A stretch of 64,000 nt of DNA, from assembly GCF_036785885.1 (NCBI RefSeq), contig NC_092323.1:14516501-14580500 (forward strand), in the 5' to 3' direction. The DNA is from Coffea arabica (taxonomy: Eukaryota; Streptophyta; Magnoliopsida; Gentianales; Rubiaceae). Positions 579 through 27,900 of the stretch are shown in pieces; the stretch's first letter is position 1; the number at the start of each line of letters is the position of its first letter. Under the pieces are notes generated by a model. It searched no databases. It was not told where the DNA came from and was given only the letters and a program-made list of their open reading frames with translations. Both the position numbers and the translations under genes were made by a program.

Positions 579-1688
579 TCAGAACTCAGATGCCATACAA
601 TGTACAATCGCAGCTCCATTAGGAACTGTGAGAATCACGTCAGACCATAAAATCCTTCCGCTCAACATTCCATCCCCATCCTTCCAAACTTCAATATCCG
701 CACACATTATCTCCACCTCCTTCCCACTCCCCTTCCCCTCCCAAACTACACACAACCTTCCATCGAAATTCACCATCGTCGCACCACATAAAAACCTAGG
801 CAACCCTTTCCCTACACCCCTCAACTCCTTCCAAACATCTTCCTCCACATCGTACCCTCTGATCTTCCCTAAATAATCATAACAATACAACACTCCCCGA
901 ACCACCGCAGCCCGCCCCCTCCACCCCAAATCAAGCCTTTTGGACACGTTTCCCCACTTCCCCAGCCCAACATCATACACCACCCCACCTCTATCCGCCA
1001 TTGCATAAACTCTCCCCTCCACCACCGCGCTCGCGTGCATCCACTTCTCCCTCACCTCAATAGGGCTCGGCACCGGGGCCCACAACCCAGTATCCGGGTC
1101 AAAAACCTCGGCCCAGTTCACAGACCGTGCCCAGCTATCCACAACACAACCACCTAGAACATAAATCTTCCCATCAACAACCCCGGCCGCAGCGAACTCC
1201 CGTCCCACCTTCATTCTTGGGCCTTCCTCCCACCTATTAAACCTACAATCATAAACCCACATCAAATTTAACGGAATTTCGTTAATAGACCCCCCAATTA
1301 CGTATATTTTCGGGCCTAGGACGGCGAACGCAGGGCCTACGGGCTGAAACGGGATGCGGGGAAGGGGAAAAATGGGTTTTTGTGGGATTTTTCTGCTATG
1401 GCAATTAGAGAGGAGAGTGTACCAGTGGAAGGAGTAGTTGATACGGAGGTTGAGGTAGAGAGAGGTTTGGGTGGTATGGAGGAGGGACCGGGTGGTGAAG
1501 AGTGCAGAGGAGGTTATGGCGGAGCGCCATGATCTTGAGACAAGAGAGAGCTTAGGGTAATAGTATCTGGGGATTCTTGATAGGCAGTTGATGGACACGT
1601 CATCTGGGAGGTCTGGGATCAGCTGGGGTTCGGCCGATGGTCGTGGCGGCTGGCCGCCACTGGTGGTGGTGGTAGTGGTGGTGGTCAT
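579..1688 (-). CDS. SKIP6: F-box/kelch-repeat protein, SKIP6-like, copy A
   Basis: Intronless 369-aa protein, probably the substrate-recognition subunit of an SCF (SKP1-cullin-F-box) E3 ubiquitin ligase. A low-complexity poly-Thr start is followed by an F-box at about residues 24-66 (IPDLPDDVSINCLSRIP, then LSLVSRSWRSAI). Kelch motifs follow at about 125-260, with the GG doublets of KIYVIGG and KIYVLGG and the downstream WVYDCRFNRW and EVFDPDTGLW. The length fits plant F-box/kelch proteins of the SKIP6 group. The start is the first Met of the block shared with copy B. A Mutator-like MITE begins 99 bp upstream of this ATG, which may alter expression. Copy A differs from B and C in the central kelch region, where those two nearly agree. 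SKIP6 is a family-level name and substrates are unknown. Confidence 0.9.
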   Translation of the reverse strand: MTTTTTTTTSGGQPPRPSAEPQLIPDLPDDVSINCLSRIPRYYYPKLSLVSRSWRSAITSSALFTTRSLLHTTQTSLYLNLRINYSFHWYTLLSNCHSRKIPQKPIFPLPRIPFQPVGPAFAVLGPKIYVIGGSINEIPLNLMWVYDCRFNRWEEGPRMKVGREFAAAGVVDGKIYVLGGCVVDSWARSVNWAEVFDPDTGLWAPVPSPIEVREKWMHASAVVEGRVYAMADRGGVVYDVGLGKWGNVSKRLDLGWRGRAAVVRGVLYCYDYLGKIRGYDVEEDVWKELRGVGKGLPRFLCGATMVNFDGRLCVVWEGKGSGKEVEIMCADIEVWKDGDGMLSGRILWSDVILTVPNGAAIVHCMASEF

Positions 1689-2604: not shown

Positions 2605-3344
2605 TTGGCAACCACCTCTATAAAATTTTCAAAATTAAACTCAAACTCGGATTGATTATTAATTTATTTTATTATTCATGCTTGATTTCAACGTCATTAT
2701 TATTAATTTTTAAGTGTTAGCAATATTTAACTAAAATTATTCATTTTATGTAATTGAAATGCTTCATTTTCTTATATACTACTAAATAAATGAAAATTGT
2801 GCAATATCTCATTGACATATCTTCTAAAAGGGCCATTTGACGTATACTCGGACGCCGTACAAAGCGTTGGGGGCCAAAGGGAAAACACAATCTGAGATTT
2901 CCAAGTTCGAACTGACAACGGGGAAACAAAATCTATCCAACTGAACTCTAAGATTGCCAGCCGTTAACAAGGAAACAGTTCCAACTGAATTGCCAAGATT
3001 TTTTACAAAGTTTCAACCAGCAAGACTGTCTGAATCCTGGTTGAACTGATCAACATATCCAGCTCCCCTTGTCCAATTGCAGTACATAATCAAAATCTGC
3101 TGAATTTCTCTTATGGGTTCCTGCCACCAATTTTGAACCATATTGCCTTTTGACAGTTTGAATTGAGATCTCTCGAAGCTTCCCGTCAGTGGGGTTCAAC
3201 TTTTGCCACCACAACACACACCTTGAAGGATGCAGAAGTTGATGCCTCCAGGAAGGAAACAAGTACTCGAGGGCCAGGCAGAGGCTATATCCCTAAGTCA
3301 GCCTAATTAAAAATTTTTGTCAACCAACATATCCAAATCACAAG

Positions 3345-3554
3345 CCACTGGCCATTTGGTCCAGTGGTCATCACCATTAAAGGTGATGCTGGAGGTCAGG
3401 GGTTCAATCCTTGCCTCCCACAAATTTGACACAATTTGTGGCGGTCTTAATTGACCTTCATCGATGGAGACTGTACTCACATCGAACCCCCTCCCCTTCC
3501 CCTTAGACTAGGCTAGATTAGGTTATAGGACATCTATCATTGCGACAAAAAAAA
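3345..3554 (+). mobile_element. tRNA-derived SINE with perfect target-site duplication
   Basis: The head resembles a tRNA-type RNA polymerase III promoter, with an A-box-like tggtccagtgg and a B-box-like ggttcaatcc. The tail ends in poly(A). It is flanked by the direct repeat catatccaaatcacaag (about 3328-3344 and 3557-3573). The other arm of the inverted duplication, near 12000-12040, has a single copy of the related sequence and no insert, so this is a filled site opposite an empty one. Confidence 0.9.
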
Positions 3555-8261: not shown

Positions 8262-9103
8262 CCCCCTTCTTTCTTTCTTGTGTCTTCCGTCAGCCGCAGT
8301 CTACAGCGGACTACCAAGTCCACCAAAGCCCATCATCAATCTCTCCTTTTTCTCTCCCCAACTGTTTCCCCCTATCCATCATCGAAAAGAGTTGAATGGG
8401 TTCTATTTGATCGTCTTAAATTTAGGAGATAATGGTAGGAAAATTTGTCAGTTCAATGATCCAATGTTGCGCCGGCAATAAAGATACTCTTGGCTGCTTA
8501 TTGCTTTATACTAGTATTTTTAACAGATAACTGTTTTTCTAGGAATTGAATAACCACTGACTCTCGGAAAAGGCATAGGTATGCCCCTATTTCCCAGCCA
8601 TAATCTGCTACATGACGAAATAAAGATTCTTTTTTATAGACAAAGTATTTGTAGAAATGTCTGTGAGGTATTTCTGAGATGACCCTTTAATGTGGGAATT
8701 AGATTGGCATGTGTTTTGACTAGTAGTATTTAGCTTTTAACATTTTCAGCTAATGGTTATGCGATAGAACTTAGGAGATCAATACAGTTGCTGGGAGTAG
8801 ATTTTCTTTTCTTTTGAAGAATGTGAAACATGCTTTTTACTTGGATGTGAGCTATTAACTTTTATCAGTGGGAATGCTAAACGAGAAAAATTCTTCATGG
8901 AAATTATGATAGTCTCTAATTTCAACATGAAACTAACTTACTGGTTGACATCATAAGGGGTGTATTACTGCCTCGTTGCAGTTGCACGCTTTATTGAAAC
9001 ATTGCTGCAAAGAAGTGGAAAAGGTGGTATTTAGCAGACTGAGATTTGTGACTATTATACTAATATGTCTTGATTTTCTACTTGCTAGAATACCACAATA
9101 AAT
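8262..9103 (+). promoter_or_regulatory. Probable promoter and 5' leader of LIP2p
   Basis: From about 8268 the sequence changes to a CT-rich leader (ccccttctttctttcttgtg), typical of plant transcription starts. A GT donor and a leader intron may lie between here and the ATG at 9104. The short reading frame at 8278-8481 lies in this leader and has no recognisable character. The assignment rests on base composition and position only. Confidence 0.35.
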
Positions 9104-11340
9104 ATGATTCTACTAGCAAGCACTGTTTCTGGCTCAATCCCAGGAAACCAACTTATTAATTCATCAAAACAGAGGCCAAGCAGTCGTTCTTGTGTTGTAA
9201 ATTCAGCAGTTGCGATGACAAATGAAGTTAAAAGAAGGTGCATTCACTTTTGAACACTGAGACTGTTTGAACACGCTTTTGAGTTTTTCAAACTTTCATT
9301 CTTTGAATTTTTATTGCGTGGCAGTTGTGAGTTTTATGACATGCATAAAGAACTCATTCCCTATGCTGAGGCATGGTCTTGGCAGAAGGACATAGTTAAA
9401 AAGAGGAAGGAATTGATCGAAAGGGAAAAAGACTGTTCAGACACACTGATCATTTTGCAGCACCATCCTGTTTATACATTGGGTACTCGTAGTTCTGAGG
9501 CATACTTGAATTTTAGCATGAAAAATGCGCCCATTAATGTATATCGAACCGAACGGGGAGGCGAAGTTACATACCATGGACCTGGACAGGTAGATTCTAC
9601 TTTTCAGCAGAATTTTGTACCTAATATCTTAGGGTGTTATTTTTATAGCTCAGGAATATTTGGAAGATATTCAGACCTGAACCTGGGTTGACTAACTAGT
9701 GTTTTGTGCTATCCACTCAGATATGTGTTTCTCATGATAATGGTAGTCATGTTATTAGAACTTTTGTGGGATCAATTTGAAGGGAAAGCCATTTGTTTAA
9801 ACCTGACTGCATTCAGGCTGGGTATATTTGCTTCCTCAAGCATTTGGGAAGTTGGGTTTGTTCCACCATCCCAGAGTCTAGAATCAAATATGTAATCTTA
9901 TAAATAAGTAGTCTTATAAGTTGTTCCAGCAGATTCAGTAGCATGTATCCTGTATCATGCTCAAGGCTGTCAATTAAATAAATGTGTTTCTTTGAGCATC
10001 AAAACCTTTTTAATTCTGACATTTTACATTTTTGTTTTGTAGCTAGTGATTTACCCAATAATCAATCTCCGATATCACAAAATGGATCTTCATTGGTACC
10101 TCAGGGCACTTGAAGAAGTTGTTATTCGTGTTCTTTCCTCAACATTTTTCATTAAAGCTTCACGTATTGAGGGCCTAACTGGTGTTTGGGTTGGTAGGTT
10201 GGCAATCCTTTGACTAATATTCTATTGCCTTTGCCATACTTACACAAGGCATGGTTGTGAAATGAGTGAAGGTTATTCAATTTGTAATTTGGAAGGATTA
10301 GGTTTGGCCTCTAATAACTGTTTGTGTGGACAAGTATAGAATTCCTTTCTATGTGAATAAGTAACCATGTAGCTGCTGAAAATGCCTTGATATCTTCCTA
10401 TCATCAAAGAGGATTTGATTGTTGTTCATTTAACTAGTTGGAAGTGACATCCAAGGCAAGAATCTTGAATGTAGATTCCATAATAGAATGAGTTCTGTGA
10501 ACATTTTGCAAGTAGACTTTTCATTGAAAAATTGGCAGACTAAAAATATGGTCAGTGCTATCACTTTTTTCATCGGTTGTCATTAAGGATAGAAAGAACT
10601 TACACTTTTTTATGTCCTTGGATTAAATTTGTAGTCTACTATCATGTTTTCAATTCTTAAGGCACTTTGACAGTCCATTTGTTTTTAGCAACACTTGAAT
10701 CTCATTCCATATGTATCATCTGAAAATTGTGAGTTTTCAGCACATATGCATAAAGTTTTACAGATAGATTGTTCTTGTCTTTTGTCCTTGACATCTTTTC
10801 CCTTCCTCTGATGTGCTTTAGGAATTATCCTTCTGGAAAAGCTGGATTGAATGGATCCATGCGTGATGGTTTTATAGTAAAATTAATTTGCTATTGACTT
10901 CTTAATAGCAATGTCATATTTAGCATTTAATTTAAGATTGCTGGTGAAATAGACAGAGACTAACACTTGTGACCCCTTCAGGAGACCAAAAACTGGCAGC
11001 TATTGGTATAAAAGTGTCACAGTGGATAGCATACCATGGATTAGCATTGAATGTTGCCACAGATCTGACAGCATTTGGTCAAATTGTCCCTTGCGGTATT
11101 CAAGATCGTCAAGTTGGAAGCATAAAGGGTCTGTTGCAGGAACATGTTTCACCTAATCAACGTGGAGCTGAAAACAAGTATGACATTGATGATAACCAGC
11201 TGATTGATATTACTCACAAATCTTTGGTTCAAGAGTTTTGCAAAATTTTTCAAGTTCACCTCCGTCATAAGCCTATCCCAGCAGGAATTGCCTGGGAAAG
11301 GCCTGAGGTTTTACATTCCATAACTGAAAAAGGAGACTAA
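9104..11340 (+). CDS. LIP2P: Plastidial octanoyltransferase (lipoyl(octanoyl) transferase, LipB family)
   Basis: The enzyme moves the octanoyl group from acyl carrier protein onto lipoyl domains in the chloroplast, for example on plastid pyruvate dehydrogenase. This is the first step of lipoate assembly. Four exons fit GT-AG rules and phase: 9104-9237, 9325-9589, 10043-10193 and 10982-11340, giving 302 residues. The N-terminus, about 45 residues and rich in Ser/Arg/Asn, reads as a transit peptide. Family motifs are [12 protein letters not shown] at 122-133, the catalytic-type Lys of KLAAIGIK at 187, YHGLALNV at 201-208 and IVPCGI with the acyl-carrying Cys at 221. The gene is intact. It sits in the spacer of the inverted F-box duplication, and its 3' flank ends at the right-arm breakpoint at 11644. 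The plastid rather than mitochondrial form is inferred from the leader. Confidence 0.93.
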
Positions 11341-11643
11341 AAGAACATGAAGGATGCACCAGGTGCTTTCCATTTTGCTGTTAAGTATGTCTTACACTCC
11401 ATTTATGCAGAAAATTTCAAGACTCGGCTTAGTTTTACAGTGTCAGGATTCTTGAATATTCAAATTCTCTTTAAAGCAAGTTTGTGCAAATCTTTATGGT
11501 CTATTGACTTTCAGAGCATTTTATTCTTTCATTTACTGAGAGATAGGAGTCTAATAAATGGGATGATGAATCTTTTCTGCAAATAGCCTTTGGAGCGCAA
11601 AATTGCGTGACAGAATTTACATGATTCTCGAGGATTGTAATGG
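11341..11643 (+). other. 3' flank of LIP2p up to the inversion breakpoint
   Basis: This is the probable 3' UTR and short intergenic DNA. The 79-codon open frame at 11347-11586 shows no family features. Just before the breakpoint a frame reading AKLRDRIYMILEDCNGN runs into the orphan exon in a different frame from the one conserved in the left arm. Its meaning is unclear. Confidence 0.4.
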
Positions 11644-11665
11644 CAATACATTTGCACATCTGCAG

Positions 11666-11775
11666 ATGCCCTTGATGACTGCCTGAAATTGAAAGAGTTT
11701 GAGTTGGCTGGAATCAGATTTGCTCCAATGCCTGTTCAAGAAGAAGAGCTAACTAGGAACCAGAGTATGATCTAA
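11666..11775 (+). pseudogene. Orphan 3'-terminal exon relic, right-arm copy
   Basis: Partner of 3780-3889. The acceptor atctgcag is followed by a frame encoding LKLKEFELAGIRFAPMPV and an Asn-Gln-Ser-Met-Ile end with a TAA stop. It lies downstream of LIP2p on the same strand, but LIP2p already ends in its own stop at 11340 with no donor nearby. I therefore do not join them. The parent gene is not recognised. Confidence 0.5.
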
Positions 11776-12789
11776 AATATGTAGTTTACTTGGTAATTAC
11801 TCCAGCTAAGCACATTACTAGTTTGCATTGTATGTGCTTTTAATTTTCCTTCTCTATATTTTTGTGATACTGTGAAGTAGTTTGAGGGTGCTATAAGTTT
11901 AAGCATTACTAGGTTACAGCTGATTTTTACAAAACTGTCATCTTTAGATCATCTTGCTGATTGAAATTTAGTTCAGCATTATAATTTGTATAAAGTTACT
12001 TGTGATTTGGATCTGTTGATTGACAAAAAATTTTAATTAGGCTGACTTGGGGATATAGCCTCTGCCTGGCCCTCGAGTACTTGTTTCCTGGAGGCATCAA
12101 CTTCTGTATCCTTCAAGGTGTGTTGTGATGGCAAAAGTTGAACCCCACTGACGGGAAGCTTTGAGAGATCTCAATTCAAACTGTCAAAAAGCAATATGGT
12201 TCAAAATTGGTGGCAGGAACCCATAAAAGAAATTTAGCAGATTTTGATTATGTACTGCAATTGGACAAGGGGAGCTGGATATGTTGATCAGTTCAACCAG
12301 GATTCAGACAGTCTTGCTGGTTGAAACTTTGTAAAAAATCTTGGCATTTCAGTTGGAATTGTTTCCTTGTTAACGGTTGGAAATCTTAGAGTTCAGTTGG
12401 AAAGATTTTGGAAATCTGAATTGTGTTTTCCCTTTGGCCCCCAACGCTTTGTACTGCGTCCGAGTATACGTCAAATGGCCCTTTCACAAGATATGTCAAT
12501 GAGATATTGCACAATTTTCATTTATTTAGTATATAAGAAAATGAAGCATTTCAATTACATAAAATGAGCAATAAATAATAAGATAAATTATTGCTAACAC
12601 TTAAAAAATAATAATAATGACATCGAAACCAAGCATGAAGAATAAGATAAATTAATAATCAAGTCGAGTTTGAATTTAATTTTCAAAATTTTTTTCAACA
12701 TATAGGCATTTCCAAAGTTTTAAGAGTCCCTATACATATTTAGCTGCAACAACATAGGCATTTCCCGAGTTTCACAGTCCATTGGTTAG

Positions 12790-13899
12790 ATGACCACCAC
12801 TACCACCACCACCACCAGTGGCGGCCAGCCGCCACAACCATCGGCCGAACCCCAGCTGATCCCAGACGTCCCAGATGACGTGTCCATCAACTGCCTATCA
12901 AGGATCCCCAGATACCATTACCCTAAGCTCTCTCTTGTCTCAAGATCATGGCGCTCCGCCATAACCTCCTCTGCACTCTTCACCACCCGGTCCCTCCTCC
13001 ATACCACCCAAACCTCTCTCTACCTCAACCTCCGCATCAACTACTCCTTCCACTGGTACACTCTCCTCTCTAATTGCCATAGCAGAAAAAACCCACAAAA
13101 ACCCATTATTCCCCTTCGCGGCCTCCCGTTTCAGCCCGTAGGACCTGCGTTCGCCGTCCTAGGCCCGAAAATATACGTAATTGGGGGGTCTATTAACCAA
13201 ATCCCGTTAAATTGGATGTGGGTTTATGATTGTAGGTTTAATAGGTGGGAGGAAGGCCCTAGAATGAAGGTGGGCCGGGAGTTCGCCGGAGCCGGGGTTG
13301 TTGATGGGAAGATTTATGTTCTAGGTGGTTGTGTTGTGGATGTTACGGCTCAGTCTATGGACTGGGCCGAGGTTTTTGACCCGGTTACCGGGTTGTGGAC
13401 CACGGTGCCGAGCCCTGTTGAGGTGAGGTTGAAGCGGATGCACGCGAGCGTGGTGATGGAGGGGAGAGTTTATGCAATGGCGGGTAGAAGTGGGGTGGTG
13501 TATGATGTTGGGCTGGGGAAGTGGGGAAACGTGTCAAAAAGGCTTGATTTGGGGTGGAGGGGGCGGGCTGCGGTGGTTCGGGGAGTGTTGTATTGTTGTG
13601 ATTATTTAGGGAATATCAGAGGGTACGATGTGGAGGAAGATGATTGGAAGGAGTTGAAGGGTGAAGGGAAAGGGTTGCCTACGTTCGTCTATGGTGCAAC
13701 GATGGTGAATTTCGATGGAAGGTTGTGTGTTGTTTGGGAGAAAAAGGGGAGTGGGAAGGAGGTGGAGATAAAGTGCGCGGATATTGAAGTTTGGAAGAAG
13801 GTGGGTGGAATGTTGGCTGGAAGGATTTTGTGGTCTGGTGTGATTCTCAAAGTTCCTGATGGAGCTGCGATTGTACATTGTATGGCAGCTGAGTTCTGA
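12790..13899 (+). CDS. SKIP6: F-box/kelch-repeat protein, SKIP6-like, copy B
   Basis: Intronless, 369 aa, with the same architecture as copy A: poly-Thr start, F-box at about 24-66, then kelch motifs with KIYVIGG and KIYVLGG. It probably acts as an SCF E3 ligase substrate receptor. The first half is almost identical to copy A. From about 13217 to 13490 it is instead nearly identical to copy C (about three differences in some 280 bp), then returns to A-like sequence (WGNVSKRLDLGWRGRAAVV). The last 80 codons again favour C (GLPTFVYG, VVWEKKGSGKEVEIKC). This mosaic points to gene conversion. The reading frame is intact. The snoRNA cluster begins about 800 bp downstream on the same strand. Confidence 0.9.
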   Translation: MTTTTTTTTSGGQPPQPSAEPQLIPDVPDDVSINCLSRIPRYHYPKLSLVSRSWRSAITSSALFTTRSLLHTTQTSLYLNLRINYSFHWYTLLSNCHSRKNPQKPIIPLRGLPFQPVGPAFAVLGPKIYVIGGSINQIPLNWMWVYDCRFNRWEEGPRMKVGREFAGAGVVDGKIYVLGGCVVDVTAQSMDWAEVFDPVTGLWTTVPSPVEVRLKRMHASVVMEGRVYAMAGRSGVVYDVGLGKWGNVSKRLDLGWRGRAAVVRGVLYCCDYLGNIRGYDVEEDDWKELKGEGKGLPTFVYGATMVNFDGRLCVVWEKKGSGKEVEIKCADIEVWKKVGGMLAGRILWSGVILKVPDGAAIVHCMAAEF

Positions 13900-14701
13900 T
13901 GGTGATGTTTGTGCAGGGTATGGCAATTGTTCTTTGGTGCATATGTTGTTTATAATATTCAGGTTCTTTTATCTTTGAAGCATGTTAGCCATTTAGTTAT
14001 CTGATTCATTTGTTTGAATGCTTTGTTTTTTATGGGTTTAGCCTCGTACGGTTATACCATGCCTGTAAACTTCCCTCTCTCTCGTTCTAATTGAATAGTC
14101 ATTAAATATAGTTATATAAAACTGGTTCGTTGCAGAGAGTGTGAACTTTTACTTCATTCTTTGTGAGGAAAGGGGAAAATAGAGCGCAAATTGGGGCAAT
14201 GGCCATTGAGGAGGGAACATCCCTGAACCTCTGAAGCACACATAAAAAGGAACAAGCTCGATTGGTTCATTCTATACTTTTTAATTGACTTCCCCCCCCC
14301 CCCCCCCCTTTATTTGATATTAATTGGTCATCTTGCCTAAAATATGCTTTCATATAATTATGGAGCAAAAACTCTACGGAATAAAGCCAGCAGCTTAACA
14401 TGTCCTATACTGTAACAAGGGTTACCCAACAGACTGACTGCCTCCACTTTCATAAGAGTTTAAGAACATTTGATTTTCATATGCCAAGCAACGTCATTCA
14501 TCCAATCCCAGAAGACCCAAGCTAGTGTTTTATGTCTTTTGTTCTTTTGCCTAACTGTGAAGTCCCGCTGGCATACATTGTTCTTTTAGGTTCCTCCTTC
14601 TTGTTTAGACATTTTAATCATTCATTACTGCTTCTTGAGCTTCTTGCTGGAAAATTTTCTTCTTTTTTATTATCCTATTTGCCTTTGAATTTTTCCTGGA
14701 T

Positions 14702-14789
14702 GGACCGATGATGTAATAAGAAATAAACTGCGTTATCTATCTGCAATTTCCCAAATGGAATTGAAGATTAATTTGTCTTCCTGAGGTTC
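14702..14789 (+). ncRNA. Box C/D snoRNA candidate B1, snR68-like (25S rRNA 2'-O-methylation guide)
   Basis: The terminal stem is ggacc (14702-14706) with ggttc (14785-14789, one G-U pair). Box C is ATGATGT at 14708-14714 and box D is CTGA at 14781-14784. An internal D'-like CTGC lies at 14741-14744. Immediately upstream, ctgcgttatct (14728-14738) is the exact complement of AGATAACGCAG, which I recall from plant 25S rRNA just upstream of GTGTCCTAAGATGAGC. The D+5 rule selects the A of GAT, which I associate with the yeast snR68 site (Am2640). The duplicate copy at 21555 has a fully paired ggacc/ggtcc stem. The D' box is off consensus, so activity is less sure than for B3. Confidence 0.65.
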
Positions 14790-14896
14790 TGTATGATAAT
14801 TATCAGTCTAATGGTTTCATAATGTCATTTTTTCAATTTCTTTTTCGATATTGAAGTCTGTACTGGTGGTTTAATTTGTTTTATGATCTGAGGATG

Positions 14897-14981
14897 AGCA
14901 TCAGTGATGACATATGACAATTGTTATCCTTGCACTTTGATTACCAGTGAAGAAAACTATGGGGATTGACTCTGAGATGCT
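14897..14981 (+). ncRNA. Box C/D snoRNA candidate B2, target unknown
   Basis: A perfect 6-bp terminal stem, agcatc (14897-14902) with gatgct (14976-14981), encloses box C GTGATGA (14904-14910) and box D CTGA (14972-14975). A C'-like gtgaaga lies at about 14947-14953 and a D'-like TTGA at 14937-14940. The size of 85 nt is normal for plant C/D snoRNAs. The guide upstream of D is ctatggggattgact and the one upstream of D' is gttatccttgcact. I could not match either convincingly to rRNA. The D' guide resembles the complement of the U6 stretch CAAGGAUGACA, with a G-U pair. The candidate is kept in the tandem copy at 21739. Confidence 0.65.
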
Positions 14982-15309
14982 GTTCTCCTCATTTCCCACC
15001 TCTCTGTTGAGTTATGTACTTTATTTTTGATGCTGTAATCTGGAGATTCTGAGATTCAGTCGAATGGTATACTCACAGTTGTTTTACCCATGTATTCAAA
15101 ATGGATTAGAGCCAAATTCAACACGAGCATTTTGGATTTGTTTGTTTTTTAAGATATTTTCTCAATTGACAAAATGGCCTTATAATGTGATACTCTGCTA
15201 CTTTGATGTCCCCATGATGATTGCGCTGCCATTGCTTGATTTTTTTTTAGATTTAGACAGATTCAATATTTTTTGAACATTGCTGTAGTTTAGTCTTGAT
15301 TGTCCATTC

Positions 15310-15387
15310 TGGATCAGTGATGTTAATGTTTTTACTGCGTTATCTATCTGAAATCCAGTTGAGGATAGACTTACTTCCTGAGATCCA
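15310..15387 (+). ncRNA. Box C/D snoRNA candidate B3, snR68-like (25S rRNA 2'-O-methylation guide)
   Basis: The best formed of the cluster. A perfect 6-bp terminal stem, tggatc (15310-15315) with gatcca (15382-15387), encloses box C GTGATGT (15317-15323), D' CTGA (15348-15351), a C'-like ttgagga and box D CTGA (15378-15381). The guide ctgcgttatct (15335-15345), with D' spaced as in B1, is exactly complementary to AGATAACGCAG of 25S rRNA. The predicted methylated base is the A in GAT. It is a diverged paralogue of B1, so the cluster holds a local duplication as well as the segmental one. The target was assigned from memory of 25S rRNA and should be aligned to confirm. Confidence 0.75.
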
Positions 15388-16910
15388 GTCCATTTTTTAT
15401 TGAGCATCATTAATTACCACTCATGGATTATATTGCAAATGTGAGATACTACCCTCCTTGCCTTTTGTTTGTCCCGGGTTTTCTTAACAATCCGGTCCCA
15501 GAAGTGAGCATTTGAATTTATCATGAAAGTTCAATTTATACGATCGCTTTTGCTTGCTATATGATGACTTTATAGTATGGAATTGCGTGTGTAGTCAGCT
15601 ACCTTACACTTTTTCTTTCCCTCTGTTTCAACTCTTAGAATTTTGGTCCACTTTTATTTTTGAGTCATTCTGTCATGTTGTTACTTGTCCCTGGTGTGCA
15701 AAATTTGTTCTTGAAGGTGATAATATCGTATATGTTTTTGCAGCTACTTTTTTTAATTTGCAGACATCTATTGAGGGATAAGTGTTAGATGAGAACGTAT
15801 ACTCCATTTGAGTTCATTTCTTGGAGCTTTGGTTCATTTTCTAGTCATTTTCTCCTGTCGCCATCTTTCATTGGCATTCACAATTCCCTTTAAGGGAATG
15901 AGAAATTCCTGTTTACTTGTGAGGTCATTCATTTCAAAAGGCTGACAATCATTCAAGTGCCAGGCTTCCTTTATGGAACTTTGTTTCCAAAGCTGGTCGC
16001 CTCACATCTGTTCTTCTTCCCCTTCATGTAATTTCAAATTTCTTGCTTCTATAGCTAAAATGAATTTTCATCCATTCACTTCCATTGCTTATGGTCTGAA
16101 AAGGAGGGCTGCCTGAGCACGTGGGGCTTTACTGTTGATCTTCTTGTATGAGAGATGCATTATGATTTTTAGCTTCCTATTTCATTAATCCCGAGTACTT
16201 TCATTGATGACAAAAAACCATGTGGTGTTTTTAACAGGATTCTCACTGCAATCAATTTTTCAAACTATTCCGGTTGAGAAGTAGGTGATAAATTGCTCCT
16301 TAGCAAAATGATGCTACTGCAGTTTCGTCTAGCTCAGATTGTGTGACTAAGCTACATTGGGTTAGCTATCCAGCTGCTTCAGATTCTCCAAAATGCCGAG
16401 GTGTATTGCGTAGTCCAAGTCGCCACCACCTGTGGTCCATTGGTTGATAATTTGCTGGCCAAGTTTGCTATATTCAATCTGGAAATTATCTTCTGTATTT
16501 CTATTCAGCCACATTCTCGACAATATCTACTTTCTCCAATATGTGTGTATAGTAGTAGGGTTTATCTGCAGCTGGCAATGTAAGTTCGACCGGTCCTGCT
16601 GCTTCTTGTTGTATGTACCTTTCTTTTCCCTTTTGATTCGAAAGTAATTTACTGTGCTCAGACAGACCAGTGGATGTCAGATAAGCTCATGTGTTTTATT
16701 CGTGCATTGTGCTATAAATTCTACTCCCTCAGTTATTGGTTTCAGAATTGTTAAATCCTTTCATCTGGATGGAAATCTCGTGCTCTCATGCAACTGTATA
16801 TCACTTAGGATCAAATTCATATGTTTATAGTCATTCCACTTCAAATACAACTGCATGTTCAGTGATTTTGAGCATTGTTGTTCATTTCATTCGTAAATCC
16901 TGAATATGAA

Positions 16911-16962
<52 letters not shown>

Positions 16963-17664
16963 GTATAGGAGTGACTTCCCACGAAAGGTCGTTTTTACAG
17001 TTATTCTACAAGTATAGGGATCCTTCAGCAATGGAGAAAAATGTCGTGCTCGCCTTCCTAGGGACGAGGACATAGAAGAGCATGAGCCCCCACTGGACAT
17101 TCGCAGGTGGATCTTGTATGATCTTCAGACGGATCCTTAGTGACGGTCAAAATGTTTAAATTTTCTGTTTTGACACCTTTTTTTCTTGTTTTGACGGTTA
17201 ATGCCCCTCGAAATAGTGTCTAAAACTTCTATAAAAACGTCAGACCAACCACTGGTGTTAATCACTTGGCTAAGAAAATACATGATTCATTAGACAAAAG
17301 TTGCAACTTTCAAATACTTCTAGATCATATAGGGGGTGATTTGCTATAGAAAATTACTAGAATTCCCTTAAAAAACAGTCCATAGTTCAAGTAGGGTTTG
17401 TCTTACTTAGTGCAAAGAGTAAAAGATAGACAAATTTCAAATTATGGTGAAGGCTAATTTGTCCAAGCTCTATTACTAGACAACTAAAATCTAAAGAAAA
17501 GTGATTTTGAATCAAGATTTGAAACCTTTATTTTGTGTTTTTATCTTTGTATCATTCAGCCATTTTCTTTGTAATATTCCCAACATTTTGCACCTTTGAT
17601 CGTGATACATTTCCCACGCTTTGATACACCCAATATAGACCACATCATAGGTGTATATTCTGAA
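15388..17664. other. Duplicated non-coding block downstream of snoRNA cluster B
   Basis: No convincing protein was found. The short open frames here are frameshifted or changed in the tandem copy, which argues against coding. About 15840-16330 is close to 99% identical by eye to about 22630-23130, including an attccctttaagggaat palindrome and a hairpin at about 15960-15998. A (TA)n tract followed by (GTAT)n lies at about 16915-16966. Confidence 0.6.
16915..16966. repeat. (TA)n/(GTAT)n microsatellite
   Basis: A simple tandem repeat of TA followed by GTAT units. Unit 2 has only a short remnant at about 23691-23703. It also produces spurious Tyr/Ile-rich reading frames. Confidence 0.95.
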
Positions 17665-18062
17665 TAGGGGTGTAAGAGTCGAGTATATTCTGAATATACA
17701 ACATCATGGGTATATTCTGAGTTTCGAACTAATCAAACCGAGTCTCGTTCGAACTCGATTTTGAACTCGTCGAGTTCAAAATGTCTAGTTTGAGTTTAAA
17801 ATTTTTTTAAAAAATTAATTATTTTATTTTAAAATGAATAAAATAATAATTTTTCTTAACGAATAATAAAATATTAGAGATATATATATGTAATTTTACT
17901 ATTAAAATAAAAAATTAAATACATAATCAAATTTGAACCGGCTCACGAGATAATGAGATTAGTATTTTTGAACTCGAATTTGACTTGATTAACTTGAATT
18001 TGACTCGAGCTCGATGTTGACCGAACTCAAGCGATTCGATTCGTTTGCAGGTTGCGGTCCTA
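17665..18062. mobile_element. hAT-like MITE, GACTCGAGCTCG family, unit 1 only
   Basis: It is bounded by attctgaa (17657-17664) and attctgag (18063-18070), an 8-bp target duplication with one mismatch. The ends are taggggtgtaag and gcaggttgcggtccta. Internal sequence (tttgaactcgtcgagttc, gactcgagctcgatgttgac, gcgattcgattcgtttgcag) is shared with 32438-32886 and, more loosely, with 2125-2604. The equivalent point in unit 2 (about 24375-24395) lacks it. Confidence 0.78.
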
Positions 18063-18874
18063 ATTCTGAGTACAAAAGTTCCTTTCCCACACAAAATACA
18101 TATGATTGATGTCTTTTACAACATTGCCTGATATGGTACTAAAACCAATCTTGACAGTTTCTGCAGTAAATATGTTCTCATCTCAAGATCTACGTCACTA
18201 TTTATACAGTTATCCATATGCACATTTATACCAAGGCATTTCCCAAGTTTCAGGCTTTCAGCTACAGGGTTTCAACCTAGGTCCATTGGGGCCTTGTTCA
18301 GTTACAGGGTTTTTTAGTGAGTCCCTTTTATATTAGTCTTTGACTCAATTTTACGATGACTCCTGAGTGTTTCTAATTTAACTGGGTGTGTGTTGATTTC
18401 GGTTCGGAAGAAAAATTTCCCAAGTTTCAGTCCACAGCTACAGTTATGCTATGGATATGAAGTATCATAAATTGTTAGATGACCCTTTTAGAAGGTGAAT
18501 GAGATATTACTGCACAATTTTCATTTATTTAGTGCAAGAAAATGAAGCATTTCAATTACAAAAAAAAAAAAGAAATAATTTTGGTTAAATTTTGATACAT
18601 TAAAAGTTAGTATAATAACAATAATTGGGTCTGTTTGATTATCAAGATTTGCATATATATATATATATATATATATTATAAATATAATTTTGAATCACTT
18701 TTTTACCTAATATAAATTACATTACAAGTAATGCTACAGTATTATTTTAGATACTTTTTAGCTTATGGGAGGTCTCTACAGTTAAATCCCTATGCATATT
18801 TAGCTGCAACCACCTTGACCGAGCAACCAACCAACATAGGCATTTCCAAAGTTTTCACAGTACACTGGTTAGAT

Positions 18875-19960
18875 ATGACCACCACCACCTCCTCCAGTGG
18901 CAGCCAGCCGCCACAACCATCGGCTGAACCCCAGCTGATCCCGAAGCTCCCAGATGACGTGTCCATCGACTGCCTAGCAAGAGTCCCCAGCTCCCATTAC
19001 CGTGATCTCTCTCTTGTCTCGAAAACATGGCACTCCGCCATAACCTCCTCTACACTCTTGACCGCCCGGTCCCGCCTCCGTACCACCCAAACCTTTCTTT
19101 ACCTTAACCTCCGCATCGACAACTCCGTCGACTGGTACACTCTCGTCCCTAATTGCCAAAACCCACAAAAACTCATTTTTCCCCTTCCCCGCAACCGGGT
19201 CCAGCCCGTAGGGCCCGCGTTGGCTGTCCTAGGCCCGAAAATATACGTAATTGGGGGGGCTTTTGATGGAATTCCGTCAAATTCGATGTGGGTTTATGAT
19301 TGTAGGTTCAATAGGTGGGAGGAAGGCCCTAGAATGAAGGTGGGCCGGGAGTTCGCCGGAGCCGGGGTTGTTGATGGGAAGATTTATGTTCTAGGTGGTT
19401 GTGTTGTGGATGGTACGGCTCAGTCTATGGACTGGGCCGAGGTTTTTGACCCGGTTACCGGGTTGTGGACCACGGTGCCGAGCCCTGTTGAGGTGAGGTT
19501 GAAGCGGATGCACGCGAGCGTGGTGATGGAGGGGAGAGTTTATGCAATGGCGGGTAGAAGTGGGGAGGTGTATGATGTTGGGGTGGTCGGGAAGTGCGGA
19601 AACGTGTTAATAATTTGTCGGCGGCAGCCTGCGGTGGTTCAGGGAGTGTTGTATTGTTGCAATATTTTTGGGAAGATTGCAGGGTATGATGTGGAGGAAG
19701 GTGTTTGGAAGGAGTTGAAGGGTGTAGGGAAAGGGTTGCCTACGTTCGTCTATGGCACAACGATGGTGAATTTCGATGGGAGGTTGTGTGTTGTTTGGGA
19801 GAAAAAGGGAAGTGGGAAGGAGGTGGAGATAAAGTGTGCGGATATTGAAGTTTGGAAGGATGGGGATGGAATGTTGGCTGGAAGGATTTTGTGGTCTGGT
19901 GTGATTCTCAAAGTTCCTAATGGAGCTGAGATTGTGCATTGTATGGCAGCTGAGTTCTGA
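18875..19960 (+). CDS. SKIP6: F-box/kelch-repeat protein, SKIP6-like, copy C
   Basis: Intronless, 361 aa from the Met at 18875. An in-frame upstream extension to 18731 exists, but its sequence matches the non-coding upstream DNA of copies A and B, so I use the shared start. The F-box lies at about 22-64 (IPKLPDDVSIDCLARVP, LSLVSKTWHSAI), followed by kelch motifs as in B. It probably acts as an SCF E3 ligase substrate receptor. The N-terminal third and the stretch after about 19568 (VGKCGNVLIICRRQPAVV) differ from A and B. The part in between is nearly identical to B. No frame disruption. The snoRNA cluster follows about 1.6 kb downstream because of an insert. Confidence 0.9.
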   Translation: MTTTTSSSGSQPPQPSAEPQLIPKLPDDVSIDCLARVPSSHYRDLSLVSKTWHSAITSSTLLTARSRLRTTQTFLYLNLRIDNSVDWYTLVPNCQNPQKLIFPLPRNRVQPVGPALAVLGPKIYVIGGAFDGIPSNSMWVYDCRFNRWEEGPRMKVGREFAGAGVVDGKIYVLGGCVVDGTAQSMDWAEVFDPVTGLWTTVPSPVEVRLKRMHASVVMEGRVYAMAGRSGEVYDVGVVGKCGNVLIICRRQPAVVQGVLYCCNIFGKIAGYDVEEGVWKELKGVGKGLPTFVYGTTMVNFDGRLCVVWEKKGSGKEVEIKCADIEVWKDGDGMLAGRILWSGVILKVPNGAEIVHCMAAEF

Positions 19961-20311
19961 TCGTGATGTTTGGTGCAGGGCATGGCAATTGTTCTTTGGT
20001 GGACATGTTGTTTATAATATTCAGGTTCTTTCATCTTTGAAGTATGCTAGTCATTTAGTTATCTGATTCATTTGTTTGAATGCTTTGCTTTTTGTGGGTT
20101 TAACCTCATATCATGCATGTAAACTTCCCTTCCTCGTTCTAATTGAATAGTCATTTAATATAGTTATATAAAACTGGTTCGTTGCAAAGAGTGTGAACTT
20201 TTACTTCATTCTTTGTGAGGAAAGGGGAAAATAGAGCGCAAATTGGGGAAATGGCCATTGAGGAGGAACATCCCCGAACCTCTGAAGCACATATAAAAAG
20301 GAATAAGCTCG

Positions 20312-21065
20312 TGTACTACCCTACAAATTGTAGTATTGTTTCACACTGAATAAGCTCTATGGGTAGTCAAATTTTTACTGGAAAACAAAGTTAATTGTAG
20401 GCTGACATGAATAAGAATAATGGCATATATATTGCCATTGAAAAGATATTGAAAATTGCCTCTGCTTAGAGGGCCCCTTCGTTGCCTTTATTTGTCCTTT
20501 TCCATATTTTCATTTAATTTTTCAGTAATTCAAGTAACTTAGTTAGATTTTTTTATTCAAGAATTGGTGTTTCATTCATGACCTTTGGAACTTAAACACA
20601 ATGTCATGTGTTGAATTATGTAAATGTGTCTTTGGTAGCACATTTTGGTATAGTGGCTTGCAACCCTTTGATACTCTTCTGCTGGGTAAATGAACTTTAT
20701 AAATGTAGTTACCTTCACCTGTGTCCGCAAAATATTATTGCTGATAAACTGAAGTTTCATTATATATTATCAGGCAGAAAAAAACACTTAGCGAAAGAGG
20801 GGGGGAAAAGTTTGAAGGTTAAGTGTTGTGCTGTGTATACTTATTAGTAGTGAAGGTGTTTTGGACTTGTGCTTATGAATGCCGGATCCAAGTAGTCAAA
20901 AGTACTACTGAAATTATTGCATAGATTTTTGGAATTTTATTACTAAGGTTTAGCCTAAACTATAGCACTAATTTACGGGCTGCTTTGTTCGTGATCCAGA
21001 GTAACATTTGGTTTTGGAATAGTAAACTAGGCGATCGCAATGATTGTAATTCAACCTTTTGCTGT
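20312..21065. other. Insertion private to tandem unit 2
   Basis: Unit 1 runs directly from aagctcg to ggttcattctatac (14259-14280). Unit 2 has about 754 bp between the matching points. The insert is AT-rich. I found no clear terminal inverted repeats, no poly(A) tail and no recognisable protein. It could be an unclassified element, or ancestral sequence lost from unit 1. Confidence 0.55.
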
Positions 21066-21554
21066 GCTTGGCTGGTTCTATACATTTTAATTAACTTTTT
21101 TCTCCCTTATTTCTAGTTAATTTTTCATCTTCTTAGTCCTTTTCTGACTTAAATTTTTCCCCCTTATTTGATATTAATTGGTCATCTTGCCTAGAATATG
21201 CTTTCATATAATTATGGAGCAAACAATCTATGGAATAAAGCCAGCAGCTGAACATGTCCTATACTGTAATGAGGGTTACCCGGCAGACTGACTGCCTCCA
21301 CTTTCATAAGAGTTCAAAAACATTTGATTTTCATATGCCAAGCGATGTCATTCTTCCAATCCCAGAAGACCCAAACTAGTGTTTCATGTCTTTTGTTCTT
21401 TTGCCTAACTATGAAGTCCGCTGGCATAAACTGTTCTTTTAGCTTCTTTCTCCTTGTTTGGACATTTTAATCGTTCATTACTGCTTCTTGAGCTTCTTGC
21501 TGGAAAATTTTCTCCTTTTTTCTTATCCTATTCGCCTTTGAATTTTTCCTGGAT

Positions 21555-21643
21555 GGACCAATGATGTAATAAGAAATAAACTGCGTTATCTATCTGCAAT
21601 TTCCCAAATGGAATTGAAGATTAATTTGTCTTCCTGAGGGTCC
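21555..21643 (+). ncRNA. Box C/D snoRNA candidate C1, snR68-like
   Basis: Tandem copy of B1. The stem is ggacc (21555-21559) with ggtcc (21639-21643), now fully Watson-Crick paired. Box C is ATGATGT (21561-21567) and box D is CTGA (21634-21637). The 25S guide ctgcgttatct is retained, followed by the same non-consensus D' CTGC. The G-U to G-C change in the closing stem relative to B1 keeps pairing, as expected for a functional RNA stem. Confidence 0.65.
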
Positions 21644-21738
21644 TGTATGATAATTATCAGTCTATTCATTTTTTTTAATTTCTTTTTCGATATTGAAGCG
21701 TGTACTGGTGGTTTAATTTGTTTTAAGATCTGAGGATG

Positions 21739-21823
21739 AGCATCAGTGATGATATATGACAATTGTTATCCTTGCACTTTGATTACCGGTGAAGAAAACT
21801 ATGGGGATTGACTCTGATATGCT
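21739..21823 (+). ncRNA. Box C/D snoRNA candidate C2, target unknown
   Basis: Tandem copy of B2. The stem is agcatc (21739-21744) with tatgct (21818-21823), so the innermost pair is lost. Box C is GTGATGA (21746-21752) and box D is CTGA (21814-21817). Both guides are unchanged from B2. The changes sit beside box C, in the C' region and in the stem. Confidence 0.6.
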
Positions 21824-22117
21824 GTTCTCCTCGTTTCCCACCTCTCCGTTGAGTTGTGTCCTTTATTTTTGATGCTGTATACTCACAGTTGTTTTACCCA
21901 TGTATTCAAAATGGATTAGTGCCAAATTCAACACAAGCATTTTGGATTTGTTTGTTTTTTAAGATATTTTCTCAATTGACAAAATGGCCTTATAATGTGA
22001 TACTCCACTACTTTGATGTCTCCATGATGATTGCGCAGCCTTTGCTCAATTTTTTTAGATTTAGATTGATTCAATATTTTTTGAGCATTGCTGTGGCTTG
22101 GTCTTTATTGTCCATTC

Positions 22118-22195
22118 TGGATCAGTGATGTTAATGTTTTTACTGCATTATCTATCTGAAATCCAGTTGAGGATAGACTTACTTCCTGAGATCCA
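22118..22195 (+). ncRNA. Box C/D snoRNA candidate C3, snR68-like with altered guide
   Basis: Tandem copy of B3. The perfect stem tggatc (22118-22123) with gatcca (22190-22195), box C GTGATGT, D' CTGA and box D CTGA (22186-22189) are all kept. The guide reads ctgcattatct, with G to A at the fifth base. This puts an A opposite a C of the 25S target and weakens the duplex. C3 may be losing function while B3 and C1 keep the guide. Confidence 0.65.
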
Positions 22196-24640
22196 GTCCA
22201 TTTTATGTTTAGCATCATTAATTACCGCTCATGGATTATATTGCAAATGTGAGGTACTACCCTCCTTGCTTTTTCTTTGTCCCGGGCTTTCTTAACAATC
22301 TGGTCCCAGAAGTGAGCATTTGAATTTATCATGAAAGTTCAATTTATACGATCGCTTTTGCTTGCTATATGATGACTTTATAGTATGGAATTGCATGTGT
22401 AGTCAGCTACCTTGCACTTTTTCCTTCACTCTGTTTCAACTCTTAGAATTTTGGTCCTTTATTTTTGAGTCATTCTGTCATGTTGTTACTTGTCCCTGGT
22501 GTGCAAAATTTATTCTTGAACGTGATAATATCGTATATGTTTTTGCAGCTACTTTTTTTAATTTGCAGACATCTATTGAGGGATAAGTGTTAGATGAGAA
22601 CATATACTCCATTTGAGTTCATTTCTTGGAGCTTTGGTTCATTTTCTAGTCATTTTCTCCTGTCGCCATCTGTCATTGGCATTCACAATTCCCTTTAAGG
22701 GAATGAGAAATTCCTGTTTACTTGTGAGGTCATTCATTTCAAAAGGCTGACAATCATTCAAGTGCCAGGCTTCCTTTATGGAACTTTGTTTCCAAAGCTG
22801 GTCGCCTCACATCTGTTCTTCTTCCCCTTCATGTAATTTCAAATTTCTTGCTTCTATAGCTAAAATGAATTTTCATCCATTCACTTCCATTACTTATGGT
22901 CTGAAAAGGAGGGCTGCCTGAGCGCGTGGGGCTTTACTGTTGATCTTCTTGTATGAGAGATGCATTATGATTTTTAGCTTCCTATTTCATTAATCCCGAG
23001 TACTTTCATTGATGACAAAAAACCATGTGGTGTTTTTCACAGGATTCTCACTGCAATCGATTTTTCCAACTATTCCGGTTGAGAAGTAGGTGATAAATTG
23101 CTCCTTAGCAGAATGATACTACTGCAGTTTCGTCTAGCTCAGATTGTGTGACTAAGCTACATTGGGTTAGCTATCCAGCTGCTTCAGATTCTCCAAAATG
23201 CCGAGGTGTATTGCGTAGTCCAAGTCACCACCACCTGTAGTCCATTGGTTGATAATTTGCTGGCCAAGTTTGCTATAGCCAATCTGGAAATTACCTGTAT
23301 TATTCTCGACAATATCTACTTTCTCCAATATGTGTGTATAGTAGGGTTTATCTGCAGCTGGCAGTGTAAGTTCGACCGGTCCTGCTGCTTCTTCTTGTAT
23401 GTACCTTTCTTTTCCCTTTTGATTCTATAGTAATTTACTGTGCTCACACAGACCAGTGGATGTCAGATAAGTTCATGTGTTTATTCGTGCATTGTGCTAT
23501 AAATTCTACTCCCTCAGTTATTGGTTTCAGAATTGTTAAATCCTTTCATCTCGAACTCTCGTGCTCTCATACAACTGTGTATCACTTAGGGTCAAGTTCA
23601 TATGTTTATTGTCATTCTACTTCAAATACACCTCTGCATATTCAGTGATTTTGGTACATTTCATCTGTAAATCCTGAGTGAATATGAGGTATATATATAT
23701 ATGTAGGATTAACATCCACGAAGGGTTGTTTCTACAGCAATTCTACGAGTACAGGGATCCTTTTGCTATGGAGAAAAATGTCGTGCAGGGACGAGAACAT
23801 AGATGAATAGAAGTGCCCATTGGACATTGCTCCCTTATCATCTTAAAAGACTTGGCCACCAAATATGAGATGAGGACCTTGTCGCCCCCATCCTCTGCTC
23901 TGTGGCTCCAAAGAATTATGGAATCTTGCAACTCTTCGGCACAACTCCGTATTCCAATAATAATCAATTGATCTTCCAAACCTTCATCAATCTGGCTCTC
24001 AAGCGCAAGGTCCCACATGTGATGTGTAGGCATTCATTGTTGAAGATCTTCAAAATTCATAATCCGGCCATGGATTATTGAGAATCCGTCCACAAGTTCA
24101 TTTTCTTATACTCAATAGAATTCTCCGCAAAAGCACTTCAAATTATATGTTGAAAGATATTTGTCCAAATTCTATTGGACGCAAATGCCGGACAAATAAA
24201 ATCTAAAGGAAAGGGATTTTGAATCAAGAATTGAAGCCTTTATTTTGTGTTTTTATATTTGTGTCGTTCAGCCATTTTCTTTGTAATATCCCCAACATTT
24301 TGCACCTTAGACCGTTATACATTTCCCACGTTTTGGTCTGCCCAATATAGAGAGTATAGACCACATCATGGGTGTATATATATGCTCTTTGTATTCAAAG
24401 TTCCTTTCCCAGACAACATAACATGTGTTTAATGTCCTTCACGACATTGCCCGATATGGTCCTCAAACACTAAAACCAATCTTCACAGTTTCTGCAGGAA
24501 ATATGGTCCTCATCTCAAGGGATCTACATCACTACTTCGAGCACATTTACGCGCATTGGGCATGAACATTAAAAGTGACGTATATTTGCACTAAAACACA
24601 ACAGTTGTGGTCAACAAGCTGAATTGATGCTTAAATCATT
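22196..24640. other. Duplicated non-coding block downstream of snoRNA cluster C
   Basis: Matches 15388-18200 without the hAT-like MITE. The first half is very similar to unit 1. At about 23820-24130 unit 2 has private sequence containing a 96-codon minus-strand open frame (23743-24033) that I cannot assign to a family. The 3' flank of the shikimate kinase gene begins near 24640. Confidence 0.55.
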
Positions 24641-24934
24641 ATGTAGTGAACATGCTTACAAAGAATGCTGACAATCCTTCCTTGCTGACCACTGTAGTAT
24701 TTTACAGATAGAAGACAGAGAGATAGCCTATACATGAATTACTTTAACCCACCCTGCAGTGTCTAATGCAGCCTACTGAGGATACAGCACTGCACCCTAA
24801 AATGGTCAAAAAGAAGAGTATGTGAAACTCATGCGACCTTCGCCACTGGAAAACGAAAACAGGCACTTCAATGAATCATTGCCACATACGAGAAAAAACT
24901 TTGCCTCGTCCTCACTACTAACTCTGGTGCCTTC

Positions 24935-27900
24935 TTATTTCTTCAAGAACTTCTCAATTTGTACAAGTGCCTGCGGATATGTATATCAAGATAGCTACAG
25001 TCAGTAATAATGTCAATTCTATGCCCGCCGCCACCACTTGAAACCCAATTTTCAGAAATAGCAATGAGAGAAAATCTCCAGTAGGCAACAACCCATGTTT
25101 ATGAAGCCAGATGTGAAAGATATACAGGTTTAAGTTGTATGTTGCACGCTCAAGACGGTAACCAAAAACTAAAAAATAATATAACAGAATCTCCCTGGCC
25201 ACCCTATGGTCATGCTTATCATTCCCTACTCATAACTGCCCAAAAAAAAATGAAGAGGATAGTTGGCCTCTGATCTCAGGCATAGCGATCACCTCAAACA
25301 GATACATCCAAAGACCTAAAGAGCCAAAAATCTCATCTAATAAATCATTTCATCAACACAACACAAATTCAAGCATGGCACCTGTATGCACAGATACAGG
25401 TATAGAGAGAGATACCTCAATGGCGATTGCAGTAGGAGTGAGATTACAGACATCTTTGCATCCCAACTTAGCTGCAATATCTGCATTATGAAAACAGACA
25501 AGGAACTGAATAGAGTGGTTTTCCTTGTTCTTTCTCTTCTTTTCTGCATGTAATTTTTTTTTTTATTCTCATTCTAATTTAATTTCAGGACAGGGGTTGT
25601 ATCTAAAAATGCACAATTAAAATTGCTTAAAATCATACTCTCAAGGGAAACTCTTGCGCTGGCATTGGCATAGGCTTCTCCCCTATCCTCAAGAAGGGTA
25701 GACAAACGCCTGAGAGCCTGCTCAAAAACCAGATAGCAATCAAACAAAATATATGCTTCCAATTAATATTGAGAAAATTTAGCAGAATACAAAACCTTGG
25801 ACTGGTTCAGGTAAATTCTCCAATATAAGTACAATACACACCTTTGTATAGGCATCTCCTGATTCTCCATGCAGAAGGGGACGTGAATCAGTTCCTACTT
25901 TTGCAATTCTCCGTGCCAAGGCTTCTAAAGGTACGTCCAGCCAAACACTAATTCCTTTATGCATGTACTTCCTGAAATCATAAAGCAGCAAAAAGCCATG
26001 GTAAATAGATTGCTTAACAGTACCAAGTGAGATAGCAGAGAATAAGCATAAATGTCTCTTATGATAATACCAATTAATGGGCCGAACAACTGCACCCCCA
26101 CCTGTCGATACAACTAGCCGCTGCATTGAGGACAGCTTTCGTATTATTTCAGTCTAAAGAAAAGGAGCAGGATTAATAAGTTTATTTTACAAAGGATTAA
26201 GTAAAGCCAACAAAACAGAATTGTATGGATTACATTAATTAAAGTCAGCATTAGTAACTACCAGTAAATTAAAGATGATGTATTGTGCCCCCTGGGGATT
26301 GCTTGAAGACAAAGCATTTGCAAACAAACCCAAGAAATTAGATGAATGTCTACAAGCTACAAGGGTTTATATCAAAAGCTGTGTTGGCATCTCACCCAGT
26401 TAAAGGAGCACAATTTCTTTATTGATGCCTTGCTCTTTAGCCAAAGTTTATCTCGTACCAACTCTTTGTGTATAGTAGATCAAATTCAGGAATGCAAAAT
26501 AACAATTATGTCATAGAACAACATGTGCAAAATTATCATCATCCAAAGCTAGTCAATATATTGGCAATTTTAATCAACTTAGACTTGATCTTAATAAACT
26601 TTGGCATATTCATGTTCACCTTCATCAAGTCTCCCAATGCTTTAATCAGAATGTCTTACCTCCATGCTTTCAGTGCCTGCGTGCTTGATAGCATAATTTT
26701 CAATGATAAAATTGGAGTTATGATGCAACCAAACTTGTCAGAGAGAGAGAGGGGGGGGGGGCGTGGCTAGTGCCAAGAAGTCAAGTTCCTATTTGTTCCT
26801 TCAAACTGTGCTGAAATTGGTTTATCAATATAATTTTCCTCCAGCAAGCAAACAGATCTTTACTTTTCTGCATATTTTTTTCACATTGGGAGAACCCCAG
26901 TTTCCTTGCGGGTTTTACATGGCTCACTGTAGGTAAAATCTCTTATCAAAACCTTTTCCCTCAAAGCACTGGTGTCTAGCTACTTTCCCTTTTTCTCTAT
27001 AACTTTGGTTTTGGAGGGGATTAAGTTTCAAATAGAATTCTAACACTGAAAGAAGTGTCAAGTCCAGCATGAAGATCCTCTAAAAGCATGTTCAGATGTA
27101 TTATGTTGATGCATCAGAGATGTTGCATAAATGGAAAAATAACACTTAAAGTTACATCAGGAACCCAGCATTGCATCATGCATGAATACCAGAGCAAAGT
27201 CAACATATAAAACCATGTTTCTTTAACCAATTAGATAACAGCTGGGGGTTAACCCGAATCAGCTAGCCAACTTATAATTATAATTACCACTAAGGGTATA
27301 AAATCTACAAGATGCTCCTTTTCCATGCTTTTTCCCTCTCAATAGAGAAAGTTATTCAGCAAATAATGCACAGACATTTGCTTACATGATTGTGTGCACA
27401 AAAAGATAGAGCAAAATGTAAATGGACAAAGAGATAGTTGGGCAAAAAAGCTTAAATGATCCATCTGATAAAGAGAAGAAGTTCAAATCTTACGAATTTG
27501 AATCAGGATTATCATACAAAAAAACTTGAAAGGAAAGACACAGCACGGTATGTTAAGTGAGCTGTCAAGCTTGTACTCTTTTATATCTGTTGACACACTT
27601 CTTGTTTCCCTTGCATCACTCTATCAATGAACTGTTGAAGTCTTCCATATGTTTGAGGGCATGCAAATAAAGAAATTACGATGCTTAGTGTCTGACCTCG
27701 TTGTCTCTAAAGAAGCACTCGCCATATAACTTAAAGATCTCAGCAACAGTAGTCCCCCCAACAGCCTGCTCTATTAGCGTGTCACTGAAACATTACAAAG
27801 AAAATGACACGCTAAGCGTGGAGCAATTAAAGAGAACTCAAACAGCACTTGTCAACATAAAAAAGAAAACATGATGATGCAACTATTCTAATTCTTACTG

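Follow-up and report, generated by a model that had tools for sequence, protein, structure and literature searches.

A box C/D snoRNA cluster of the snoR26 and snoR27 families downstream of duplicated kelch-repeat F-box genes in Coffea arabica

We analysed a stretch of 64,000 nucleotides of Coffea arabica DNA (the window) and found that it carries, twice, a box C/D snoRNA cluster of two already catalogued plant families, which makes it an ordinary cluster and not a novel type. It is very likely that in each of three modules at this locus a C/D cluster of the order snoR27a-snoR26-snoR27b lies downstream of a SKIP6-like kelch-repeat F-box gene on the same strand, guides the methylation of U6 at C63 and of 25S rRNA at A2641, and was duplicated in the manner proposed below. 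The reading as a C/D cluster is supported by Rfam matches, by searches of the plant's own genome, by the fit of the guides to assumed target letters, and by a divergence below that of the flanks. Family membership, copy number, conservation and motif integrity were observed directly in these comparisons; guide pairing was seen on the assumed target letters, and expression, processing, methylation and the order of the duplications are inferred. The coordinates of the features are collected in Table 1.

Table 1. Features of the snoRNA locus and its neighbourhood, in window coordinates
Feature	Position	Strand	Evidence and remarks
snoR27 copy a, module II	14700..14792	+	Rfam RF01287, 67.0 bits (cut-off 41); motif scan; guide pairing
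Parts of snoR27a, module II	box C 14708-14714; guide 14728-14738 before D'; box D 14781-14784	+	
snoR26, module II	14895..14982	+	Rfam RF01286, 84.1 bits (cut-off 47); motif scan; pairing with assumed U6 letters
Parts of snoR26, module II	box C 14904-14910; guide 14922-14933; D' 14937-14940; box D 14972-14975	+	
snoR27 copy b, module II	15308..15389	+	Rfam RF01287, 63.0 bits; motif scan; guide pairing
Parts of snoR27b, module II	box C 15317-15323; guide 15335-15345; D' 15348-15351; box D 15378-15381	+	
snoR27 copy a, module III	21553..21646	+	Rfam RF01287, 64.8 bits; extra G between box D and stem
snoR26, module III	21737..21824	+	Rfam RF01286, 76.1 bits; terminal stem short of one pair
snoR27 copy b, module III	22116..22197	+	Rfam RF01287, 59.4 bits; guide base G to A at 22147
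Kelch-repeat F-box (SKIP6-like) gene, module II	12790..13899	+	ORF; Pfam F-box and Kelch_FKB95; homologs; about 800 nt upstream of cluster
Kelch-repeat F-box gene, module III	18875..19960	+	ORF, Pfam; start codon chosen within ORF 18716-19960
Kelch-repeat F-box gene, inverted module I	579..1688	-	ORF, Pfam, BLAST; its snoRNA cluster just left of the window
Noncoding T-rich stretch holding the cluster	14305..17101	+	BLAST; repeated at 21159-23828 (90.5%)
Shikimate kinase exon	25779-26153	-	ORF, Pfam; beside F-box array

The preliminary description of this DNA had placed three stretches with boxes C and D at 14702-14789, 14897-14981 and 15310-15387, with second copies starting at 21555, 21739 and 22118, and all of these were found again when the sequence was read. 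The Rfam scan that it had proposed for the cluster was run on the whole 64 kb, with the gathering cut-offs of 47 bits for snoR26 (RF01286) and 41 bits for snoR27 (RF01287). Six matches only were returned, all on the + strand and end to end, one at each of the six stretches, which bears out their reading as box C/D snoRNAs. The order snoR27-snoR26-snoR27 occurs at 14700-15389 and again at 21553-22197. snoR26 scored 84.1 and 76.1 bits in the window and 76.1-84.7 bits over six genomic copies, and snoR27 scored 59.4-67.0 bits in the four window copies and 58.6-71.7 bits in 12 genes, every score lying above the cut-off of its family. The cluster had been called hidden; this is true for protein-based annotation, but an ordinary Rfam scan finds it.

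Like the Rfam snoR26 family, the window copies match positions 1-94 of 94, including boxes, guide and stem; they differ from it in a guide mismatched at positions 1 and 3 and, in module III, in the loss of one stem pair. The four snoR27 copies likewise match 1-94 of 94 of their family, but copy b is 82 nt long and copy a 93, D' of copy a reads CTGC instead of CTGA, and box C ends in T, being RTGATGT rather than RTGATGA in 12 of 12 genes. No further snoRNA came to light. Rfam taken to an E value of 5 over 12000-26000 gave 16 matches, namely the six known ones and ten below the cut-off, of which six lay over the two snoR27b copies, three on a TA repeat at 16910-16978, and one was RybB (E 4.7). 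The motif scan described below showed no extra snoRNA inside the clusters. No tRNA was found in the 64-kb window, and therefore no tRNA-snoRNA dicistron.

The motif scan asked for both boxes, C and D, together with a stem no shorter than 5 bp, and covered both strands. It yielded eight candidates in the window, six of which are the Rfam snoRNAs, as compared with a mean of 0.8 and a maximum of 3 in 30 dinucleotide shuffles of the window (both strands). On the + strand between 14480 and 15500 there were three candidates, against a mean of 0.04 and a maximum of 1 in 200 shuffles. Lone candidates are thus expected by chance at 0.8 per 64 kb over both strands, and on that ground the pattern of boxes and stem could be thought a chance match; this reading has next to no probability, being contradicted by the Rfam scores, by the presence of three candidates together and by the guide fit, and it is already refuted by the family matches. 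The two other candidates of the scan, 3298-3374 and 8290-8382 (both on the minus strand), are close to what chance would give, and Rfam matched neither at the gathering threshold. Terminal stems of the six window snoRNAs measure 5, 6, 7, 5, 5 and 7 bp, against the 5-6 bp given earlier. Single-strand folding of the six was unremarkable (z from -2.19 to 0.22), as is usual for C/D snoRNAs.

The guides before D' were paired with target letters taken from assumed U6 and 25S sequences, using the module II copy only for snoR26. The guide of this copy (before D' TTGA) forms a 12-nt pairing run with the assumed U6 at guide positions 4-15, including one G.U pair, and is mismatched at positions 1 and 3; the base at D'+5 lands on U6 C63 (index 63, base C). 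In three of the four window copies of snoR27 the guide forms an 11-nt run with the assumed 25S fragment. The longest run is 6 in the fourth copy (22116-22197), where the base change at 22147 interrupts the pairing. D'+5 of snoR27 lands on the first A of GAUAACGCAG, in a fragment too short to confirm the number 2641, and this A is probably A2641. An Arabidopsis methylation map, in the portion cited here, assigns U6 C63 to SnoR26 and 25S A2641 to SnoR27 and SnoR68Y (PMC8053127), and A2641 is given again in the relevant passage of PMC10761087. On the assumed letters, therefore, the guides appear to fit the sites published for Arabidopsis, that of RF01286 snoR26 the U6 C63 assignment (PMC8053127) and that of RF01287 snoR27 the 25S A given as A2641 (PMC8053127, PMC10761087), as far as these sources go. 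The assumed U6 letters themselves gain support from the agreement between the predicted U6 position and the published one. Viral contigs scanned for pieces of the U6 and 25S targets gave no match. In the mechanism that we propose, the snoRNAs would assemble with the C/D proteins and fibrillarin; snoR26 would then guide 2'-O-methylation of U6 snRNA at C63, and the snoR27 copies that of 25S rRNA at the A presumably equivalent to Arabidopsis A2641.

Self-BLAST of the window revealed that module II (12750-17101) is repeated as module III (18832-23828), with 89.3% identity in the F-box part and 90.5% in the cluster part. An inverted copy of module II, module I, is truncated at the window's left edge, where positions 1-1783 are 94.3% identical to 14487-12694. 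We then searched the genome (1.198 Gb, 131 contigs) for both families. At least six snoR26 genes were found among the best 67 of 182350 first-look candidates that were scored, three on the window's contig (C14) and three on contig C13, and at least 12 snoR27 genes, in the same two places, among the best 65 of 294611. The snoR26 gene of module I is inverted and lies about 400 nt left of the window (C14:14516006-14516093, minus strand). Hence the claim that the cluster is carried twice by a tandem duplication is correct for the window itself, but just beyond its left edge there is a third copy in inverted orientation. C13 carries three clusters in the same arrangement as C14, and C13 and C14 are probably haplotypes, because their corresponding modules are 97.8-98.4% identical; alternatively, they may be homeologs.

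Comparison of 3-kb loci showed modules I and II to be 95-96% alike and module III to be 80-83% identical to either, a figure lowered by the inclusion of non-homologous flank; over homologous parts only, cluster regions I or II were 88.6-91.6% identical to III (BLAST). Since module I is closer to II than to III, the tandem duplication probably preceded the inverted one. The F-box gene and its cluster would thus have been duplicated in tandem as one unit, giving rise to modules II and III, and module II would probably have been copied later in inverted orientation to form module I.

The six cluster copies were finally compared over gap-free columns of 14305-16380, a restriction made because the module III flank upstream of 14300 is non-homologous. 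Variable columns numbered 9 of 251 in the snoRNAs and 179 of 1768 in the flank (odds ratio 0.33), with a Fisher p of 0.0004 that is rough because the cluster copies are related and not independent; there was one gap column in the snoRNAs and 61 in the flank. Boxes C and D, said in the preliminary description to stay intact, were found in every one of the 18 genes that make up the six genomic copies. It had also pointed to a stem change, ggttc to ggtcc, that keeps pairing. The pairing is indeed kept, as G.U against G-C, with ggtcc in four of six copies, but the change is one-sided and, taken alone, weak evidence.

In module III of the window, one stem pair has been lost from snoR26 at 21737, an additional G follows box D in snoR27a at 21553, and the guide of snoR27b carries the G to A change at 22147. 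These three changes could mean that some copies, those of module III first, have been decaying since the duplication, and that only one or two clusters are active. We consider such decay improbable, given that all 18 snoRNAs of the six genomic clusters score above their family cut-off, that the boxes are kept in every one of them, and that their divergence is about one third of that of the flanks. The change at 22147 is missing from the C13 counterpart (L005) of this copy.

Polycistronic production is described as the norm for plant snoRNAs in the cited part of PMC5122169, and the spacing and strand of the present genes fit a single polycistronic precursor by analogy. Like the plant clusters treated there, this one groups several same-strand snoRNAs within 700 nt and has duplicated isoforms; unlike them, it combines snoR26 with snoR27, a combination absent from the ten conserved clusters named in that part of the text (PMC5122169). 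We propose that a longer Pol II precursor would be processed into the individual RNAs, and 14305-17101 is the likely precursor region. On the + strand T makes up 38-44% in nine of ten 250-nt bins of 14501-17000 and 34% in the tenth, and the ORF listing has no frame of 120 aa or more in 14305-17101, which together fit a transcribed noncoding region. In the interval from the F-box stop to the cluster, a motif scan detected neither a telo box nor a site II element, and therefore no typical plant snoRNA promoter was found there. The five site II matches in 11500-26000 are all inside F-box ORFs, and the telo boxes close to the clusters (16556, 17392, 23342) all lie on the downstream side. Two of these, at 16556 in module II and 23342 in module III, read TAGGGTTT and stand about 1.2 kb downstream of the clusters, directly followed by a donor-like GTAAGT at 16580 and 23366. 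Module III has between its F-box gene and cluster about 850 nt of its own (20312-21158), with short repeats only, 26 stops in the first + frame and no listed ORF of 120 aa.

The precursor, as distinct from the identity of the RNAs, admits a second explanation, by which the clusters lack a separate transcription unit and are made from a 3' extension of the F-box transcript (3' UTR or late introns), so that the two outputs are coupled. The constant succession of F-box gene and cluster, on the same strand in all three modules, would agree with this, as would the + strand between about 14500 and 17000, which is T-rich and resembles an intron, with its donor-like GTAAGT at 16580 and 23366, and the lack of telo box and site II element between F-box stop and cluster. 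It is weakened by the AATAAA at 14380, before the cluster, which may be a poly(A) signal, by the fact that splice-site matches are few, and by the interval 20312-21158, which separates gene and cluster in module III and is missing in I and II. On balance we regard a 3' extension as possible, though rather unlikely. As regards transcription of the proposed polycistronic precursor, both a promoter of its own, of an unrecognised type, and read-through from the F-box gene are possible.

In each of the three modules a kelch F-box ORF of the same orientation precedes the cluster, in line with the earlier placement of the cluster downstream of an F-box gene; the ORF of module II is 12790-13899. The closest named homolog of the F-box protein is from Coffea canephora (87%). 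No title on snoRNAs with kelch F-box host genes or SKIP6 was found in searches of the open-licence literature. The shikimate kinase exon beside the F-box array, taken together with Arabidopsis, suggests that the F-box/shikimate-kinase neighbourhood may be old, because the same two families have neighbouring locus numbers there. We take the numbers At2g21940/At2g21950 and At4g39540/At4g39550 to denote neighbouring genes, as is the naming habit in Arabidopsis. The cited passage of PMC2593004 names At2g21940 and At4g39540 as the shikimate kinases of Arabidopsis, and that of PMC9063267 describes synteny between one potato gene and the kelch F-box pair At2g21950 and At4g39550. Elsewhere in the window, ORFs 9254-9691 and 10948-11340 match the two halves of the lipoyl protein ligase catalytic domain and are probably exons of one gene. 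A broader proposal would hold that the plant's only snoR26 and snoR27 genes derive from the 3' extension of a SKIP6-like F-box gene within a long-conserved F-box/shikimate-kinase neighbourhood, and that F-box duplications raised the dose of the U6 C63 and 25S A2641 guides. We think this doubtful.

In summary, the general understanding of snoRNAs is unchanged by this locus, and what our results add is a snoR26/snoR27 locus from an asterid that is complete and clearly bounded. In one snoR27 copy the guide is naturally mismatched, which provides a small test case for dose and redundancy. Collectively, our findings suggest that in this plant the guides of both families come from a single locus with three clusters.
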